DNA of 64,000 bases from Oscillospiraceae bacterium (lineage in GTDB: Bacteria > Bacillota > Clostridia > Oscillospirales > Oscillospiraceae): positions 1-64,000 of the forward strand of contig CACZDN010000016.1 in the NCBI GenBank assembly GCA_902779945.1, read 5' to 3'. Below are positions 1,241 to 49,611 of the stretch, piece by piece. The translations under genes were made by a program, and so were the position numbers. The stretch's first letter is position 1. Each line of letters opens with the position of its first letter. Under the pieces are notes generated by a model. That model did not search any database. It was not told the DNA's origin and saw only the letters and a program-made list of their open reading frames with translations.

Positions 1241-1350
1241 TAAAGGCAATACCGCATAATTCGGCAAGAGCAGATCCTGAGAAAATTTGGGTTCTGATAA
1301 AGGCACTTTTTCGCAGATGTACTTTGTGTACCTCAAGAAGTGTTGCCTAA
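1241..1350 (+). repeat. MITE-like repeat, subfamily B, internally deleted copy
   Basis: Begins TAAAGGCAATACCGCATAAT, runs through the central hairpin (GTAC-TTTGT-GTAC) and then jumps directly to the terminal GTGTTGCCTAA, so about 50 bases of the right half are missing. It is on the same strand as the copy at 17541. Confidence 0.75.
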
Positions 1351-1463: not shown

Positions 1464-1653
1464 TAGGGCAACACCGCGCAATACGGCGAGAGCGAATCCT
1501 GAGAAAAATTGGGTTCTGATGAAGGCATTTTTTTGCAGGAATACTTTGTGTATTTCAAGAAAAAGTGACAAAATCAGAGCGCAGAAAAAGTGACAAAATC
1601 AGAGCGCGAATTTTCCAGGAGGCGCCGATGGCGGATTGTGCGGTGTTGCCTTA
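1464..1653 (+). repeat. MITE-like repeat, subfamily A, with internal 25-bp duplication
   Basis: Left end TAGGGCAACACCGCGCAAT and right end TGCGGTGTTGCCTTA form the terminal inverted repeat. Inside, a 25-base unit beginning AGAAAAAGTGACAAAATCAG is present twice in tandem (1558-1582 and 1583-1607), making this copy longer than the others. Confidence 0.8.
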
Positions 1654-3579: not shown

Positions 3580-4464
3580 ATGAAAAAACTGTTGGCGATG
3601 CTGATTGCCCTTACGCTGGCGCTCTCCTGCCTGTCCGGGACGGCCATGGCCGAGGGGTATAAATCCAGGCTTCTGAAAAAGACCATCCGGCTCCCGAGCA
3701 AGATGGCGCTTGTCGATGAGGTGAAGCTGGACGACGGCAGCGGCGTGGAGTTCACGTTCAGCGTCGAAGGCCAGCCCGATGCGAGCATCTATGTCGACGC
3801 GCAGAACATCAAGGAATTCAAGGGCTATACCATGGCCAAGCTGCCCGACGAGGTGCTTGATTCCTGGACCGAGAACTACTATCAGTACTATCCCGAGAAC
3901 GCCACCGCCGGCCGTCTGCCCTCCGACGACAAGAAGGGCGACGAGCTCTACTGCTACTGCGGCCAGGGCACGGAGGACGGCAGCATTCTTGTGTACACAA
4001 GCGTGCAGGATGAGCTCTGCGTGACCTCCTACTGCATCTCCGAGAGCGTCAACATGTCCAAGCTCGCCATGGAGGCGACCCTGGAGGCGCTGAACGCCGT
4101 GAACGCCGCGATCGCAAAGAATAACGCCTCCGGCAGCCAGGCAGCCCCCGTCTACAACCACAAGAATTACGACGTTGAGTACTTCTTCCTGATCCTGCTC
4201 GACGAGGACGATGACGACGATCTCGACCTCTACGATGACGACGATGACTTCGACTTCGATTACGACGACTGGGACGACTGGGACGACGACTACGACGATT
4301 ACGACGACCTCGACGATTACGACTACGACGACGATTACGATGACGGCTATGACGACTACGAGGACTACGGCGACTACGACGACGGTGGTTACGAGGACTA
4401 CGGCGACTACGATGACGGCGGTTACGAGGACTACGGCGACTACGATGACGGCGGCGACTGGTAA
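3580..4464 (+). CDS. Secreted protein with long Asp/Tyr/Gly-rich repetitive tail
   Basis: A 294-residue protein with a clear Sec signal peptide (KKLLAMLIALTLALSCLSG, probable cleavage after AMA near residue 24), a folded domain of about 180 residues that I do not recognise, and from about residue 207 a tail of some 88 residues made almost only of Asp, Tyr, Gly, Glu, Phe and Trp. The tail ends in three near-identical 11-residue units (YEDYGDYDDGG; 33 bases each, about 4345-4455). There is no LPXTG motif, no membrane anchor and no lipobox. The tail would be highly negative and could bind calcium or other cations or stick to surfaces; that is inference. It has its own promoter and a following stem-loop. 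Confidence 0.85.
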   Translation: MKKLLAMLIALTLALSCLSGTAMAEGYKSRLLKKTIRLPSKMALVDEVKLDDGSGVEFTFSVEGQPDASIYVDAQNIKEFKGYTMAKLPDEVLDSWTENYYQYYPENATAGRLPSDDKKGDELYCYCGQGTEDGSILVYTSVQDELCVTSYCISESVNMSKLAMEATLEALNAVNAAIAKNNASGSQAAPVYNHKNYDVEYFFLILLDEDDDDDLDLYDDDDDFDFDYDDWDDWDDDYDDYDDLDDYDYDDDYDDGYDDYEDYGDYDDGGYEDYGDYDDGGYEDYGDYDDGGDW

Positions 4465-4489
4465 TCGGCCATAACTATATAACAGCATG

Positions 4490-4673: not shown

Positions 4674-4712
4674 ACCGGGAGGCGCCGATGGCGGATTATG
4701 CGGTGTTACCTT
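4674..4712 (+). repeat. MITE-like repeat, right-end fragment
   Basis: Only the last 35-40 bases remain: GGGAGGCGCCGATGGCGGAT followed by TATGCGGTGTTACCTTT. It lies just after the HerA-like gene on the opposite strand. Confidence 0.65.
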
Positions 4713-7457: not shown

Positions 7458-9508
7458 CGTCTGTACGCCACGGCATAGAGGATGCCGAGGAGGAGGACCA
7501 GGAGGCAGGCGCCGACCATGATCCAGGTATCGCTGCTGACGAGCTGCGGGCCGGCCAGGGTCTCCACGACGGCGTCGTCGACGGACTGCTCCGTCGACGT
7601 CTGTCCCGGGCGCTGCCAGCCGCCGAAGTCGGTGGGCGTGCTGCCGAAGCCGGGAGCTGCGCCGCCGAAGTCGGGAGGCGGGCCGCCGAAATCGGGAGGC
7701 GGGCCGCCGAAATCGGGAGGCGGGCCGCCGAAATCGGGGGGCGGGCCGCCGAAATCGGGAGGCGGGCCGTTAAACCCGGGAGGCGGCTGCATGTCCGTGG
7801 GCGTCGGGCGCATCCCCGCTCCGTCCGGGCGCGGACCGCGCGGCCCGCCGTCGCGCGGGCGCATCTGGCCGAAATTCATGTTCCCGCCGAAGCCGTCGCT
7901 TTTCACGTCGCCGTAGGAGGCGGAGATCTCGCTGAGGGTGATCTGCTCCTCCTTCTCGCCAATGACAAGGGTATAGGTCTCGCCGAGCTTCATTTTGGGC
8001 GAGCTGAGGGAGACGGAGGAGAAGGCGCAGGGCGGCGTATAGCGCAGCAGCACGCGGCCCTCGGCGTCCTCGAGGCTCAGCTCCGTGCCGGCGGCGACGC
8101 CGTAGCTGATGTTGTAGAGGATGGAGCACTGGGTGGACGAGGAGCTGAAGCCCTCGGCCATCATGTAGCTGCCGCAGGCGACCACCTCGCCGCCGCTGAT
8201 CTCGCAGGTGCCGCCGCTTTCGCTGCCGAAATCGATGGCGCTGTTGCTGCCGTTGGAGCTGAGACTGATATTCACTCTGCCGCCGCTGATACGGATATTC
8301 CCGTTGGAGTCGATGCCGTCCGCGTCGCGGGCGACGTTGTTGACGATCGTGAGGCTGCCGCCGCTGATGTGGACCCAGGTCTCCTCATCCTCCGCGCCGG
8401 CGTCCCCGCTGTCGGACGGAGGGCCGAAGCCGGCGCCGCCGTTGGCGTTCAGGCCGTCGTCGCTGGGGTAGAGGGTAACGTCGCCGCCGCTCAGGTCGAT
8501 GGTCAGGGCCTCGATGCCCTCGTAGCACTCGCTGACGGTGAGACTGCCGCCCGCAACCGCTACCGCCCGGTCGGCGTGGACGCCGTCGTCCCCGCTCGCG
8601 ATGCGCAGGGCACCGTCCGCCATACAGAAGCTGCCGCCGGTGTGGACGCCGTCGGCCTCGCTGCGGATGTCAAGCGTGCCGCCCTCCGTCAGCATATCGG
8701 CCGCGCACTTGACCCCCGCGCCCGTGCTTACGATCTCGAGACTGCCGGAGGCGATGTAGAGCAGGCTGTCCTCCGCCCGGAGGTCGATCCCCTCGTCCCC
8801 CGCGTGCAGGGAGAGCACGGCGTTCTCGACGCGCAGGCCGTCGTTGACGTGGATCGCGTCGCCCGGGGCGTCGACGTCGATGCTGCCGCCGGTGATGACA
8901 AGCTCGTCATTGACGTCGATGCCGTGACGGTATTGCGAAAGGACCCGGAGGCTGCCGCCGCCGTTGATGGTGAGATCGTCATGGCTGAAGATCGCGCCGC
9001 TCCGGTTGTCGGCCACGGCCTCCTCGCTGAATTCCGCGCCGCTCGTCAGGCTGTTCTCGGTGCCCTCGGCCAGGGTCAGGAAGACCTTGTCGGCCTGGTC
9101 GACGCGCAGGCACGCGTCGTCGGAGCAGGAGATGTCCGCCCCGTCGAGCCTGATCCAGACCTTGGACTCGGCTTCGGCGCTGACGACGATGCTGCCGTCA
9201 TCCAGCGTGCCGGAGACCAGATAGCGGCCCGGCTGCGCGATGACCACGTCGCCGTCATAGAAGTACGCGCCGCCGCCGAAAACGCGGGCATGGTCCCCGA
9301 GCAGCGTGATCTTTGCCGCGTCGGGGGTGTTCCAGGCGCCGTCCCGGTCGTTTCTGGTGAAGTACGCGGAGTCGGTGCTGTTGACGGAGTCGCCGTCCGC
9401 GAGGACCGCGACTCCGAGGCGCTCGCCGTTGATGAACAGCAGCGTGAGCAGGAGCGTACAGACGAGCACGGCAACGCAGATATAATCAATATACTTGTGC
9501 GCTGACAC
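7454..9508 (-). CDS. Surface-exposed DUF4353 (carbohydrate-binding, beta-helix) protein with GPPPDFG repeats
   Basis: A 684-residue protein anchored at both ends: an N-terminal hydrophobic helix (YICVAVLVCTLLLTLLFI, about 9-26) and a C-terminal one (WIMVGACLLVLLLGILYAV, about 660-680). Between them, residues about 50-450 carry repeating GG-S-L-x-I turns of the DUF4353 family (Cthe_2159-like right-handed parallel beta-helix, reported to bind polygalacturonate-type sugars in that relative). Before the last helix lies a Pro/Gly linker with five tandem 7-residue GPPPDFG units (about 580-616, encoded by 21-bp repeats at 7661-7770). It is the third gene of a minus-strand operon, 12 bases after the DUF4956 gene. 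The partner genes suggest a surface structure linked to polyphosphate, which is inference. Confidence 0.85.
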   Translation of the reverse strand: MSAHKYIDYICVAVLVCTLLLTLLFINGERLGVAVLADGDSVNSTDSAYFTRNDRDGAWNTPDAAKITLLGDHARVFGGGAYFYDGDVVIAQPGRYLVSGTLDDGSIVVSAEAESKVWIRLDGADISCSDDACLRVDQADKVFLTLAEGTENSLTSGAEFSEEAVADNRSGAIFSHDDLTINGGGSLRVLSQYRHGIDVNDELVITGGSIDVDAPGDAIHVNDGLRVENAVLSLHAGDEGIDLRAEDSLLYIASGSLEIVSTGAGVKCAADMLTEGGTLDIRSEADGVHTGGSFCMADGALRIASGDDGVHADRAVAVAGGSLTVSECYEGIEALTIDLSGGDVTLYPSDDGLNANGGAGFGPPSDSGDAGAEDEETWVHISGGSLTIVNNVARDADGIDSNGNIRISGGRVNISLSSNGSNSAIDFGSESGGTCEISGGEVVACGSYMMAEGFSSSSTQCSILYNISYGVAAGTELSLEDAEGRVLLRYTPPCAFSSVSLSSPKMKLGETYTLVIGEKEEQITLSEISASYGDVKSDGFGGNMNFGQMRPRDGGPRGPRPDGAGMRPTPTDMQPPPGFNGPPPDFGGPPPDFGGPPPDFGGPPPDFGGPPPDFGGAAPGFGSTPTDFGGWQRPGQTSTEQSVDDAVVETLAGPQLVSSDTWIMVGACLLVLLLGILYAVAYRR
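7661..7770 (-). repeat. Tandem 21-bp coding repeats (GPPPDFG)
   Basis: Five near-identical 21-base units inside the DUF4353 gene; third-position changes distinguish some units. Copy number is likely to vary by slippage. Confidence 0.85.
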
Positions 9509-11505: not shown

Positions 11506-11644
11506 TTAAGGCAACACCGCACAATCCGCCTTCGGCGCCTCCTGGAAAAATCGCGCTCTGATTTTGTCACTTTTTCTTGAAATACACAAAGTATTCCTGC
11601 AAAATCAGGATTCGCTCTCGCCGAATTATGCGGTGTTGCCTTAA
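11506..11644 (-). repeat. MITE-like repeat, subfamily A, reverse orientation
   Basis: TTAAGGCAACACCGCACAAT at one end and ATTATGCGGTGTTGCCTTAA at the other. About 30 bases present in other copies (the AAATTTGGGTTCTGAT segment) are deleted, leaving 139 bp. Confidence 0.8.
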
Positions 11645-13494: not shown

Positions 13495-13567
13495 GGAGGC
13501 GCCACCCGGACTTGAACCGGGGGTCAGGGATTTGCAGTCCCGTGCCTTACCACTTGGCTATGGCGCC
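13494..13567 (-). tRNA. tRNA-Cys (GCA)
   Basis: Minus strand cloverleaf with acceptor GGCGCCA, anticodon stem GGGAC/ATCCC around anticodon GCA, T-arm CCGGTTCAAGTCCGG, discriminator U and encoded CCA (13494-13496). Last tRNA of the operon. Confidence 0.95.
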
Positions 13568-13573
13568 ATATAT

Positions 13574-13610
13574 CGAATTTGCGGACGAAGCGTCCGCAAA
13601 TTCGTTTTTT
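13574..13610 (+). repeat. Perfect hairpin between tRNA-Gly and tRNA-Cys
   Basis: Arms CGAATTTGCGGACG / CGTCCGCAAATTCG (14 bp, loop AAG) followed on the plus strand by TTTTTT. It has terminator shape only in the direction opposite to the tRNAs; on the tRNA transcript it is a processing-site-like spacer hairpin. Confidence 0.6.
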
Positions 13611-13685
13611 GGAGCGGCTTACGAGGCTCGAACTCGCTACCTCCACCTTGGCAAGGTGGCGCTCTACCGGATGAGCTAAAGCCGC
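13610..13685 (-). tRNA. tRNA-Gly (GCC)
   Basis: Acceptor GCGGCTT pairs with AAGCCGC, anticodon loop CTTGCCAAG gives GCC, T-arm GCGAGTTCGAGCCTCGT, encoded CCA (13610-13612). Confidence 0.95.
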
Positions 13686-13688
13686 GGA

Positions 13689-13764
<76 letters not shown>

Positions 13765-13785
13765 AGATCCCGTGAGTGGGAAGCA

Positions 13786-13862
13786 TGGTGGGAACAACTG
13801 GACTCGAACCAGTGACCCCCTGCTTGTAAGGCAGGTGCTCTAACCAGCTGAGCTATGCTCCC
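13786..13862 (-). tRNA. tRNA-Val (UAC)
   Basis: Acceptor GGGAGCA pairs with TGTTCCC (one G-U), anticodon loop CTTACAA gives UAC, T-arm ACTGGTTCGAGTCCAGT, encoded CCA at 13786-13788. First tRNA after the promoter. Confidence 0.95.
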
Positions 13863-17543: not shown

Positions 17544-17679
17544 AGGCAATACCGCATAATTCGGCAAGAGCAGATCCTGGGAAAATTTGGGTTCTGATAA
17601 AGGCACTTTTTCGCAGATGTACTTTGTGTACCTCAAGAAAAAGGCTCGAAATCAGGGCGCAAATTTTCCAGGAGATGCC
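17541..17679 (+). repeat. MITE-like repeat, subfamily B, right end truncated
   Basis: Starts TAAAGGCAATACCGCATAAT, of which TAA is the SPFH stop codon, and runs to TTTTCCAGGAGATGCC. The expected right terminal repeat is missing; the hexokinase reading frame begins there instead. The AGGAG of the repeat is the only ribosome-site-like sequence before the hexokinase. Confidence 0.8.
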
Positions 17680-18953: not shown

Positions 18954-19114
18954 GGCAGCACCGCATCATTCGGCGAGAGCGTATTCCGAGACAAATCGAG
19001 TCCTGACGAAGGTGGTTTTTTGCAGGAATTCTTTGTGTATTGCAAGAAAAAATGACAGAATCAGAGCGCGATTCTTCCGGAAGGCGCCGAAGACGGATGG
19101 TGCGGTGATGCCAT
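18951..19114 (+). repeat. MITE-like repeat, subfamily A, diverged copy
   Basis: TAAGGCAGCACCGCATCATT at the left end (TAA is the hexokinase stop) and GGTGCGGTGATGCCATA at the right. It is more diverged than other copies, with imperfect central hairpin (GAATTC / GTATTGC). Confidence 0.75.
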
Positions 19115-41916: not shown

Positions 41917-42167
41917 GTAACGATTCAGACCCGCGTGTCATCCTGCGCGCAGGCGAAGGAGCTTTTGGGCAACACCGCGCAATTCGCCTGCGGCATCTCC
42001 TGGAAAATTTGCACCCTGATTTCGAGCCTTTTTCTTGAGGTACACAAAGTACATCTGCAAAAAAGTGCCTTTATCAGAACCCAAATTTTCTCAGGATCTG
42101 CGCTTGCCGAATTATGCGGTATTGCCTTTGCGGTATTTATGAAAAATGACAGTGACGGAATCGTTAC
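41917..42167. repeat. Inverted repeat GTAACGATTC / GAATCGTTAC enclosing a MITE-like copy
   Basis: Arms at 41917-41926 and 42158-42167. Between them lie a GTCATCC...GAAGGAG remnant and the MITE-like copy at 41966-42129, as if the element had landed in the loop of an older hairpin. Confidence 0.55.
41966..42129 (-). repeat. MITE-like repeat, subfamily B, full-length copy, reverse orientation
   Basis: GGGCAACACCGCGCAATTCG at one end and GAATTATGCGGTATTGCCTTT at the other; the only nearly complete subfamily B copy. It shows the subfamily B right half (CCGCAGGCGAATTGCGCGG on the reverse strand). Confidence 0.8.
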
Positions 42168-42912: not shown

Positions 42913-43035
42913 TGGGCAACACCGCGCAATCCGCTTGCGGCATCTCCTGGAAAATTTGCGCCCTGATTTCGAGCCTTTTTCTTGAGGTACACAAAGTACA
43001 TCTGCGAAAAAGTGCCTTTATCAGAACCCAAATTT
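42913..43035 (-). repeat. MITE-like repeat, subfamily B, truncated, reverse orientation
   Basis: TGGGCAACACCGCGCAATCC followed by the subfamily B body through CAGAACCCAAATT, where it stops; the left terminal repeat (GAATTATGCGGT...) is missing. The break is at the presumed promoter of the GntR operon. Confidence 0.75.
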
Positions 43036-43075
43036 ACTAATTGACTAATACAGCAATACAGAGGAGGTGCCGCCT

Positions 43076-49228: not shown

Positions 49229-49403
49229 GCGAAAAACGGGTGCATTCCTCACAAAAAAGTGACGGCTTTGCCGTCTGACAAAGCCGCCCCGCGCTGCAGA
49301 ATGACAGCGGAGAGCAGACCACGCAGCACGGTCGGCTTCTCTGTGGAAATGGTTTTTCCGCAGCATGGGTGCAAAACAACCGTCTCTTTTGGGGTGCTTG
49401 CTT

Positions 49404-49568
49404 TAGGGCAACACCGCATAATTCGGCGAGAGCGAATCCTGAGAACATTTGGGTTCTGATGAAGGCATTTTTTTGCCGGAATACTTTGTGTATTTCAAGA
49501 AAAAGTGACAAAATCAGAGCGCGAATTTTCCAGGAGGCGCCGAAGGCGGATTATGCGGTGTTGCCTTA
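49404..49568 (+). repeat. MITE-like repeat, subfamily A, complete copy (type copy)
   Basis: About 165 bp. Left end TAGGGCAACACCGCATAATT, right end GGATTATGCGGTGTTGCCTTA: terminal inverted repeats of about 20 bases with two mismatches. Centre: GGAATAC-TTTGT-GTATTTC hairpin. Near the right end TTTTCCAGGAGGCGCC carries a ribosome-site-like AGGAGG. No reading frame of its own. The rest of the gap 49229-49611 holds only a remnant CCCCGCGCTGCAGAATGACA. Confidence 0.88.
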
Positions 49569-49611
49569 GGTCTTTGCTTTTATGCCCGTGCTTCGCGGGA
49601 GGCCGGCTGAA

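Follow-up and report, generated by a model that had tools for sequence, protein, structure and literature searches.

A hairpin core, probably kept for its fold, within IS5-type MITEs of an Oscillospiraceae genome

The window analysed here, 64 kb of contig C16 from an Oscillospiraceae genome (2.87 Mb in 39 contigs, 85.8% complete), carries copies of a short repeat that is an IS5-type MITE. With confidence a little better than even, we regard it as a non-autonomous element, moved in this genus by IS5 elements, that carries an old core under selection for its folded shape, with RNA as the likeliest form. The common view of hairpin MITEs is that they are debris of insertion sequences within a single genus; to our knowledge, selection on their RNA fold is still an open question in the field.

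The repeat unit and its mobiliser

The intact unit is 159 bp long, starts with GGCAAYACCGCAYAAT and closes with the inverse of GGCAAYACCGCAYAAT (Table 1). A first-pass annotation had listed nine copies with shared ends and bodies of about 165 bp without a reading frame. The repeat, or a piece of it, is present at all nine places; one end is missing at three of them (17541, 42913 and 4674), and only the copies at 1464 (with a tandem duplication), 18951, 41966 and 49404 are full length. Those at 11506 and 1241 have lost interior sequence and retain both outer ends and their duplications. The span given for the last copy, 49404-49568, was too long, as it included most of the TTAG target site duplication (TSD): the element itself occupies 49407-49565. 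The non-coding nature of the element is judged from its size and its truncations. The end pattern matches the window 14 times, against a mean of 0.21 in shuffled sequence, which excludes chance for the window repeat.

Table 1. Copies of the repeat in the window and features of the copy at 49407
Feature	Position	Strand	Detail
Full-length subfamily A copy, 159 bp	49407..49565	+	ends GGCAACACCGCATAAT / ATTATGCGGTGTTGCC
Left TSD (TTAG) of the 49407 copy	49403..49406	.	sequence
Right TSD (TTAG) of the 49407 copy	49566..49569	.	sequence
Inner structured region of the 49407 copy	49428..49544	+	covariance model R1, 101.2 bits (this copy is a seed row of R1)
46-nt core (stem, GCC/AA internal loop, tip hairpin)	49464..49509	+	row of alignment A6
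Subfamily A copy, internal tandem duplication, 184 bp	1467..1650	+	TSD TTAG; R1 79.2 bits
Subfamily B copy, internal deletion, 103 bp	1245..1347	+	TAAA on both flanks; R1 48.1 bits
Right-end fragment, 36 bp (element positions 124-159)	4675..4710	+	
Subfamily A copy, internal deletion, 131 bp	11510..11640	-	TSD TTAA; R1 46 bits
Subfamily B copy, right end lost (element positions 1-135)	17545..17679	+	R1 89.6 bits
Full-length diverged subfamily A copy	18954..19112	+	TSD ATAA
Full-length subfamily B copy	41968..42126	-	TSD CAAA on the element strand
Subfamily B copy, left end lost (element positions 36-159)	42915..43038	-	R1 67 bits

Elsewhere in the window Rfam places a cluster of four tRNAs at 13497-13862 on the minus strand. 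A GAC/TAC-rich, highly repetitive segment (4195-4467) lies inside the ORF at 3580-4464 and would encode a very acidic Asp/Tyr-rich tail, and GCCGCCGAAATCGGGAGGCGG-like tandem units of 21 bp occupy 7598-7807 inside a long minus-strand ORF.

Allowing for two mismatches at most, the end pattern matches 401 times across the home genome (250 forward and 151 reverse, one full copy being able to yield two matches); the reversed pattern, used as a control, has no match there. In the same genome at least 153 matches are obtained with a covariance model of the inner part, a lower bound with 150 of 995 first-look candidates scored. Matches are present in 21 of the 36 other genomes of the genus that were searched and in one of 23 genomes from other families of the order. 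The loci examined hold 172 distinct copies, 106 in the home genome and 66 in relatives, 91 of them near full length, and contigs of the relatives often start or stop inside copies, as expected of repeats. Short, non-coding, multi-copy and bounded by terminal inverted repeats, the element has the general features of a MITE. BLASTN of the 49404 copy against plasmids and phages returned no match. In a viral collection the exact core pattern occurs in four stretches (L375-L378), three of which lie with the pattern no more than 30 bases from where the available sequence ends.

Target site duplication, a further feature of MITEs, is frequent: exact 4-bp TSDs flank 59 of 85 near-full copies with both ends aligned (mean for shuffled flanks, 10.7) and 41 of the 56 home-genome copies checked. 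The commonest in the home genome are TTAA (14), TTAG (6), TAAA (3) and CTAA (3), and the 41 exact duplications have T at the first position in 30, T at the second in 32, A at the third in 38 and A or G at the fourth in 39, a YTAR-like site. One nested copy (L040) sits inside another copy with CAAG on both sides, the target being the element's own body. A 4-bp target duplication of the YTAR type is a defining feature of the IS5 family. Two loci (L061:2368-2528 and L062:2678-2838) show a MITE with the same ends, a different body and the same flanks in two species; it matches the core model.

Transposases of this family are found in the genus. Proteins with a DDE_Tnp_1 match occur in 14 of 41 genus genomes, and 18 of 81 such genomes have a match in a protein search. 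The DDE_Tnp_1 matches of two loci, L075 and L077, sit between ends of the MITE's type. Their proteins (P0002 and P0001, respectively), with domains DUF772 and DDE_Tnp_1, score above the cut-off of the NCBIfam IS5 model NF033581 (310.7 bits against a cut-off of 140); the remaining transposases are placed in the family by similarity to P0001 only. Among its best 80 matches, the L077 protein is identical to one in the uncultured Clostridiales isolate RUG467, shares 89% identity with one in the sheep-rumen MAG RGIG6770, and has relatives 56-63% identical in Lachnospiraceae bacterium CE91-St56, Neglectibacter timonensis and Ruminococcus albus 8. At L075, L077, L100-L104, L180 and L182 relatives of one transposase are enclosed by matching ends, so that the MITE has its ends in common with an autonomous element. 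These insertion sequences are mostly about 1.1 kb long with GGCAAYACCGCACAA-like ends, and of the eight readable on both sides six have an exact 4-bp TSD (TTAG four times, ATAG and TTAA); the duplications of L075 and L182 differ by one letter between sides. The ends of more distantly related IS5 elements are different (GGAAACACTGATTTAATC, GGAAGGTCTGAACAA). The L075 element (401-2166) is some 0.6 kb longer than its relatives, the extra segment lying upstream of the transposase.

A transposase source in the same genome, which is not strictly required of a MITE, was not found: searches of the home assembly (85.8% complete) with PF01609 and with P0001 gave no IS5 transposase. The absence of a transposase from the assembled genome leaves present-day mobility unproven. 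MITEs outlive their transposase source, and many copies here are truncated and diverged, as in a decaying family; the MITEs of the window have probably ceased to move, unless the 14% absent from the assembly contains a transposase. Among genomes carrying the core described below only eight of the 34 tested have a transposase match. When ten transposase loci from these were scanned for ends, a decayed insertion sequence in genome G392 alone had both, a fragment in G185 had one side, and an intact-looking frame in G398 had ends on neither side over the 2.5 kb covered.

An IS5-family element producing 4-bp duplications of the YTAR type is supported on both counts as the putative mobiliser. An IS5-family transposase that recognised GGCAAYACCGCAYAAT ends and cut YTAR-like sites would have moved the element in trans, by presumed transposition. 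Movement in trans had been proposed from the window alone, and it gains from the shared ends and 4-bp TSDs of IS5-family elements in the same genus and in other bacteria, as well as from the nested insertion with CAAG; the expected transposase with the same terminal repeats exists in the genus and beyond, though not in the assembled home genome.

Subfamilies, gene context and action in host transcripts

The 91 near-full copies (58 from the home genome and 33 from relatives) form two main clusters, A with 33 and B with 48 copies, with mean distances within subfamilies of 0.08 and 0.10; the two subfamilies recognised in the window are therefore real. Each consensus folds end to end into a single hairpin, with plus-strand folding energies of -86.5 (B) and -92.0 (A) kcal/mol and minus-strand energies of -61.2 and -64.4. 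The first-pass annotation had read an A-T to G-C change in the central hairpin as covariation. This holds for tip pair 75/87; the neighboring pair 74/88 breaks (A-T to unpaired T-C), pair 73/89 changes from G-T to A-T, and the evidence from the window alone is thin. Over the whole consensus there are two double changes that keep a pair, three one-sided changes between Watson-Crick and G-T, and one pair that breaks; five further changes fall on sites that are unpaired in A and B alike. The difference between A and B alone would not prove selection; support for selection comes from the wider family. We also dropped G-U pairs in the consensus as proof of RNA: when pairs are assigned by a strand-symmetric rule, the counts are GU 5 versus AC 3 in B and 4 versus 2 in A.

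By our own gene calls, 41 of 42 assessed home-genome copies (out of 58 near full length) lie between genes. This placement would fit an action in cis within host transcripts, comparable to that of ERIC in Yersinia or NEMIS/Correia in Neisseria, by which the element alters the processing or stability of neighboring mRNAs. Divergent gene pairs are rare, at two of 42 in the wider set and five of 42 in the home genome, copies are kept at the same sites across species of one genus, and known MITE hairpins are, in the excerpts consulted, cut by RNase III or change mRNA decay (PMC2267715, PMC2229807, PMC10969869). The same excerpts describe the effects of ERIC as orientation-dependent, however, and no orientation preference was found here: among 23 home-genome copies with co-directional neighbors the counts are 11 (++) and 12 (--), one further -- copy overlapping a gene call, and among 28 copies of the wider set, again with our own gene calls, 12 and 16. 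This argues against a strand-specific role in host mRNA, and we consider action in cis unlikely, if still a serious contender.

The folded core beyond the genus

Returning to a core selected for its fold, we note that some partial matches in relatives cover only the centre of the element, and that one genome of another family has a complete hairpin with the same centre and other ends. A tip pattern (CAGGAATACNNNNNGTATTNCAAGAAA, two mismatches) is found in 28 of 394 genomes of the order, the home genome included, and in 19 of 169 genera, one relative having as many as 27 matches; with the pattern reversed, the total was three hits. Thirty order-level loci were inspected by eye and 26 have the fold or part of it. 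The other four (L298, L299, L308 and L309, in genomes G287, G465, G169 and G457) lack a fold and were rejected as chance pattern matches, so the 28 genomes include four or more chance hits.

Read 5' to 3', the core comprises G, GC, an 8-bp stem, GCA, a 7-bp tip stem, a 5-nt loop, the tip stem, AA, the stem, AA and C. The 8-bp stem, which varies, thus carries a hairpin tip and is bounded at both ends by a short mismatched loop. An alignment of 23 sequences has 27 consensus pairs, of which 20 show at least one double change. This alignment contains three home-genome rows (the window copy, L037 and L305), leaves out L297, L301, L302, L311 and L314, and was made without a pair-count filter after removal of the four foldless hits; at order level, rows were picked out with a sequence pattern in which four letters of the 3' stem are fixed.

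A covariance model built from the 23 rows matches 64 of 391 genomes and 45 of 223 genera of the class (E up to 1e-5), and 11 of 398 genomes of the phylum, seven of them outside the class. All seven loci inspected from the phylum search, six from outside the class, are long hairpins; the letters GCAG...CAAG are plain in L379-L382 and not in L383 and L385. A motif search gave no match in five G1249 copies (L433-L437). At L338:1501-1617 a GC-rich hairpin takes the place of the AATAC tip, with similar stem and loops, and at L330:1235-1436 a cobalamin riboswitch lies near a core copy.

The second alignment draws on 50 loci (23 of 30 at order level and 27 of 30 at class level, L315, L316 and L332 being out) and two home copies. 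Of these 52, 38 passed a filter on loop length (5), loop letters and Watson-Crick pairs (at least 10 of 16), and 36 gapless rows from 32 genomes were used (L329 and L342 were left out). Double changes affect 13 of the 16 pairs and 92.7% of cells pair; the covariation score is 0.543, against 0.177 (sd 0.016) after shuffling, a score that none of 500 shuffles reaches and that sliding the partner brings to no more than 0.206, although the filter inflates both the percentage paired and part of the excess over shuffles. Because the 36 rows were preselected partly on pairing, the 23-row result provides the cleaner support. Covariation thus grows as distant copies are added rather than vanishing, and the original suggestion that the structure itself is selected emerges strengthened.

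The arms outside the core differ from lineage to lineage, and also among copies of one genome that share a core. In G104, a genome of the same family and another genus, four copies (L303, L386, L388 and L389) have closely similar cores and four different pairs of arms, while L387 has window-type ends and L390 yet other ends; the four copies of G644 also differ in their arms, two only partly. One locus in three species of the G104 genus has conserved flanks and differing arms: of 133 pair cells, 116 are the same, five doubly changed, two singly changed and ten broken. At a second locus, in five species, the counts are 220, 0, 10 and 6. Some copies in this genus have therefore long been inherited in place. 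In other families the core occurs in a composite element, in which two hairpins, their cores oriented oppositely, lie between outer ends of about 20 bp. Eight such composites (L320, L322, L325, L326, L327, L336, L343 and L311) are Y-shaped, about 280 nt long, with two opposed cores, and several of their ends, from more than one family, are similar to TTAGGCATAAGRGAGTCGAA. Whether the target serves as template for the arms was examined at locus L315, where G274 has the whole element, G1242 (the closest relative) and G205 keep the arms without the core, and G1230, G1244 and G1245 have unrelated short hairpins. The arms without core read as an internal deletion, and no clean empty site was found at this locus among the relatives compared. 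An automatic search for ends and duplications at 50 distant loci, which often picked inner arms, gave one clear TSD (L306, CTAA).

It is conceivable that the core is under no selection, that the palindrome repairs itself by template switching and that paired changes arise from mutation bias alone. Arms that differ wholesale between copies with the same core and yet remain complementary would be expected from such repair, as would arms that vary at one orthologous locus with palindromy roughly kept (the 133 cells above). But repair would erase mismatches, and mismatch is retained in all 36 core rows at loop 1, on which the row preselection was partly based, and in 32 of 36 at loop 2. The letters of loop 1 are also the least variable of all (GCA in 32 and AA in 33 of 36; their mean entropy is 0.20, that of the 8-bp stem 1.35), and repair would produce Watson-Crick pairs, not the excess of G-U over A-C reported below. 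Since both loops stay mismatched, copying from arm to arm alone does not explain the paired changes, and we regard self-repair without selection as improbable. Supported by these alignments, selection for pairing and for two mismatched internal loops would account for the maintenance of the core. In this reading the middle of the MITE hairpin is a member of an old family of folded cores, common to many genomes of the class and to some others of the phylum.

Strand asymmetry bears on the form in which the core might act. With pairs positioned from Watson-Crick matches alone, GU outnumbers AC cells by 57 to 17 in 61 rows (some misplaced or repeated) and by 33 to 8 in the 36 core rows; the asymmetry weakens once rows at least 80% alike are removed, the 14 left having 11 against 3 (p 0.057), and purine-purine exceeds pyrimidine-pyrimidine by 18 to 3 (p 0.0015). 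Model R1 permits G-U, so class-level rows lean toward it. The plus strand folds more stably at 48 of 50 loci. These data suggest that the GCAG...CAAG strand works single-stranded, as RNA or as single-stranded DNA. G-T pairs stabilise single-stranded DNA too, and a folded single strand or cruciform could be a signal for a recombinase or transposase, as in REP or attC, with RNA irrelevant; arms that differ among same-core copies of one genome, odd if the ends alone were recognised, and composites with one core per strand are in line with this, but the ends and 4-bp duplications of the window genus fit an IS5 transposase that cuts double strands, and we rate a DNA signal as a poor prospect.

We keep to a core that would act as a single strand, most likely RNA rather than DNA, with GCAG...CAAG as its active strand, a proposition supported and not proven. 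The alternatives posed at the outset, RNA or transposase substrate, are not settled: folding of one strand is favored, and gene orientation gives an mRNA role no support. As a guess, the long RNA hairpin would be bound or cut by a host factor for double-stranded RNA of the RNase III type; such handling would make intergenic insertions tolerable and so allow the element to persist.

Relation to known elements and significance

The family had not been recognised by name, and it has no counterpart in the sources searched. At the gathering score Rfam finds only the four tRNAs in the window, and only sub-threshold microRNA hairpins with the 49404 copy alone; for 18 of 30 class-level loci it gives no hit on the cores, and no family with a relaxed E-value either. 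Among the titles and abstracts brought up by searches of the open-licence PMC literature, none describes this core.

IS5-family MITEs are the nearest relatives: ends and 4-bp duplications match insertion sequences of the same genus and other bacteria. By eye, however, only about the terminal 16 bp are common with the insertion sequence, and the body holds a core conserved far beyond the genus. ERIC, NEMIS (Correia), YPAL and RUP are, in the excerpts consulted, palindromic MITEs each found in one genus or group, mostly with TA termini (PMC2267715, PMC2229807, PMC10969869). They resemble the present element in size (about 100-200 bp), in being mostly non-coding and multi-copy, in the terminal repeats that most possess and in their long stable hairpin; here, in contrast, the same core is found in different families and classes, and its ends vary. 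The repeats bcr1-bcr18 of Bacillus cereus include MITE-like members (bcr1-3) and conserved secondary structures predicted to be functional RNA (bcr10 and bcr18), but are described as specific to the B. cereus group, with TTTAT motifs (PMC6542083, PMC3446304). REPs, in the part of the source seen, measure 20-40 bp and have GTAG or CGTC tags (PMC3733652). REP, BIME and REPIN elements are likewise high-copy hairpins with composite forms of alternating orientation; going by their description, they differ in that target duplications here point to a DDE transposase. Finally, 250 of 3161 candidate structured RNAs from the human microbiome are palindromic (PMC8040213). The examples described in the excerpt are mostly or wholly from Bacteroidetes, unlike this core, which may nonetheless already be an unnamed entry among those candidates.

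More tentatively, we suggest that the core represents a phylum-wide structured family, probably of RNA, with two lives: in some lineages as the core of an IS5-type MITE present in more than 100 copies, in others kept in place from species to species with its arms replaced in complementary pairs. The fold, rather than the ends, would then define the element, and the conserved GCA/AA and GC/AA loops would be a putative binding site for a common partner. One strongly covarying core across many families, with changing ends, makes selection on the fold directly testable, and the covariance model supplies many natural variants and a defined two-loop motif with which a partner may be sought.
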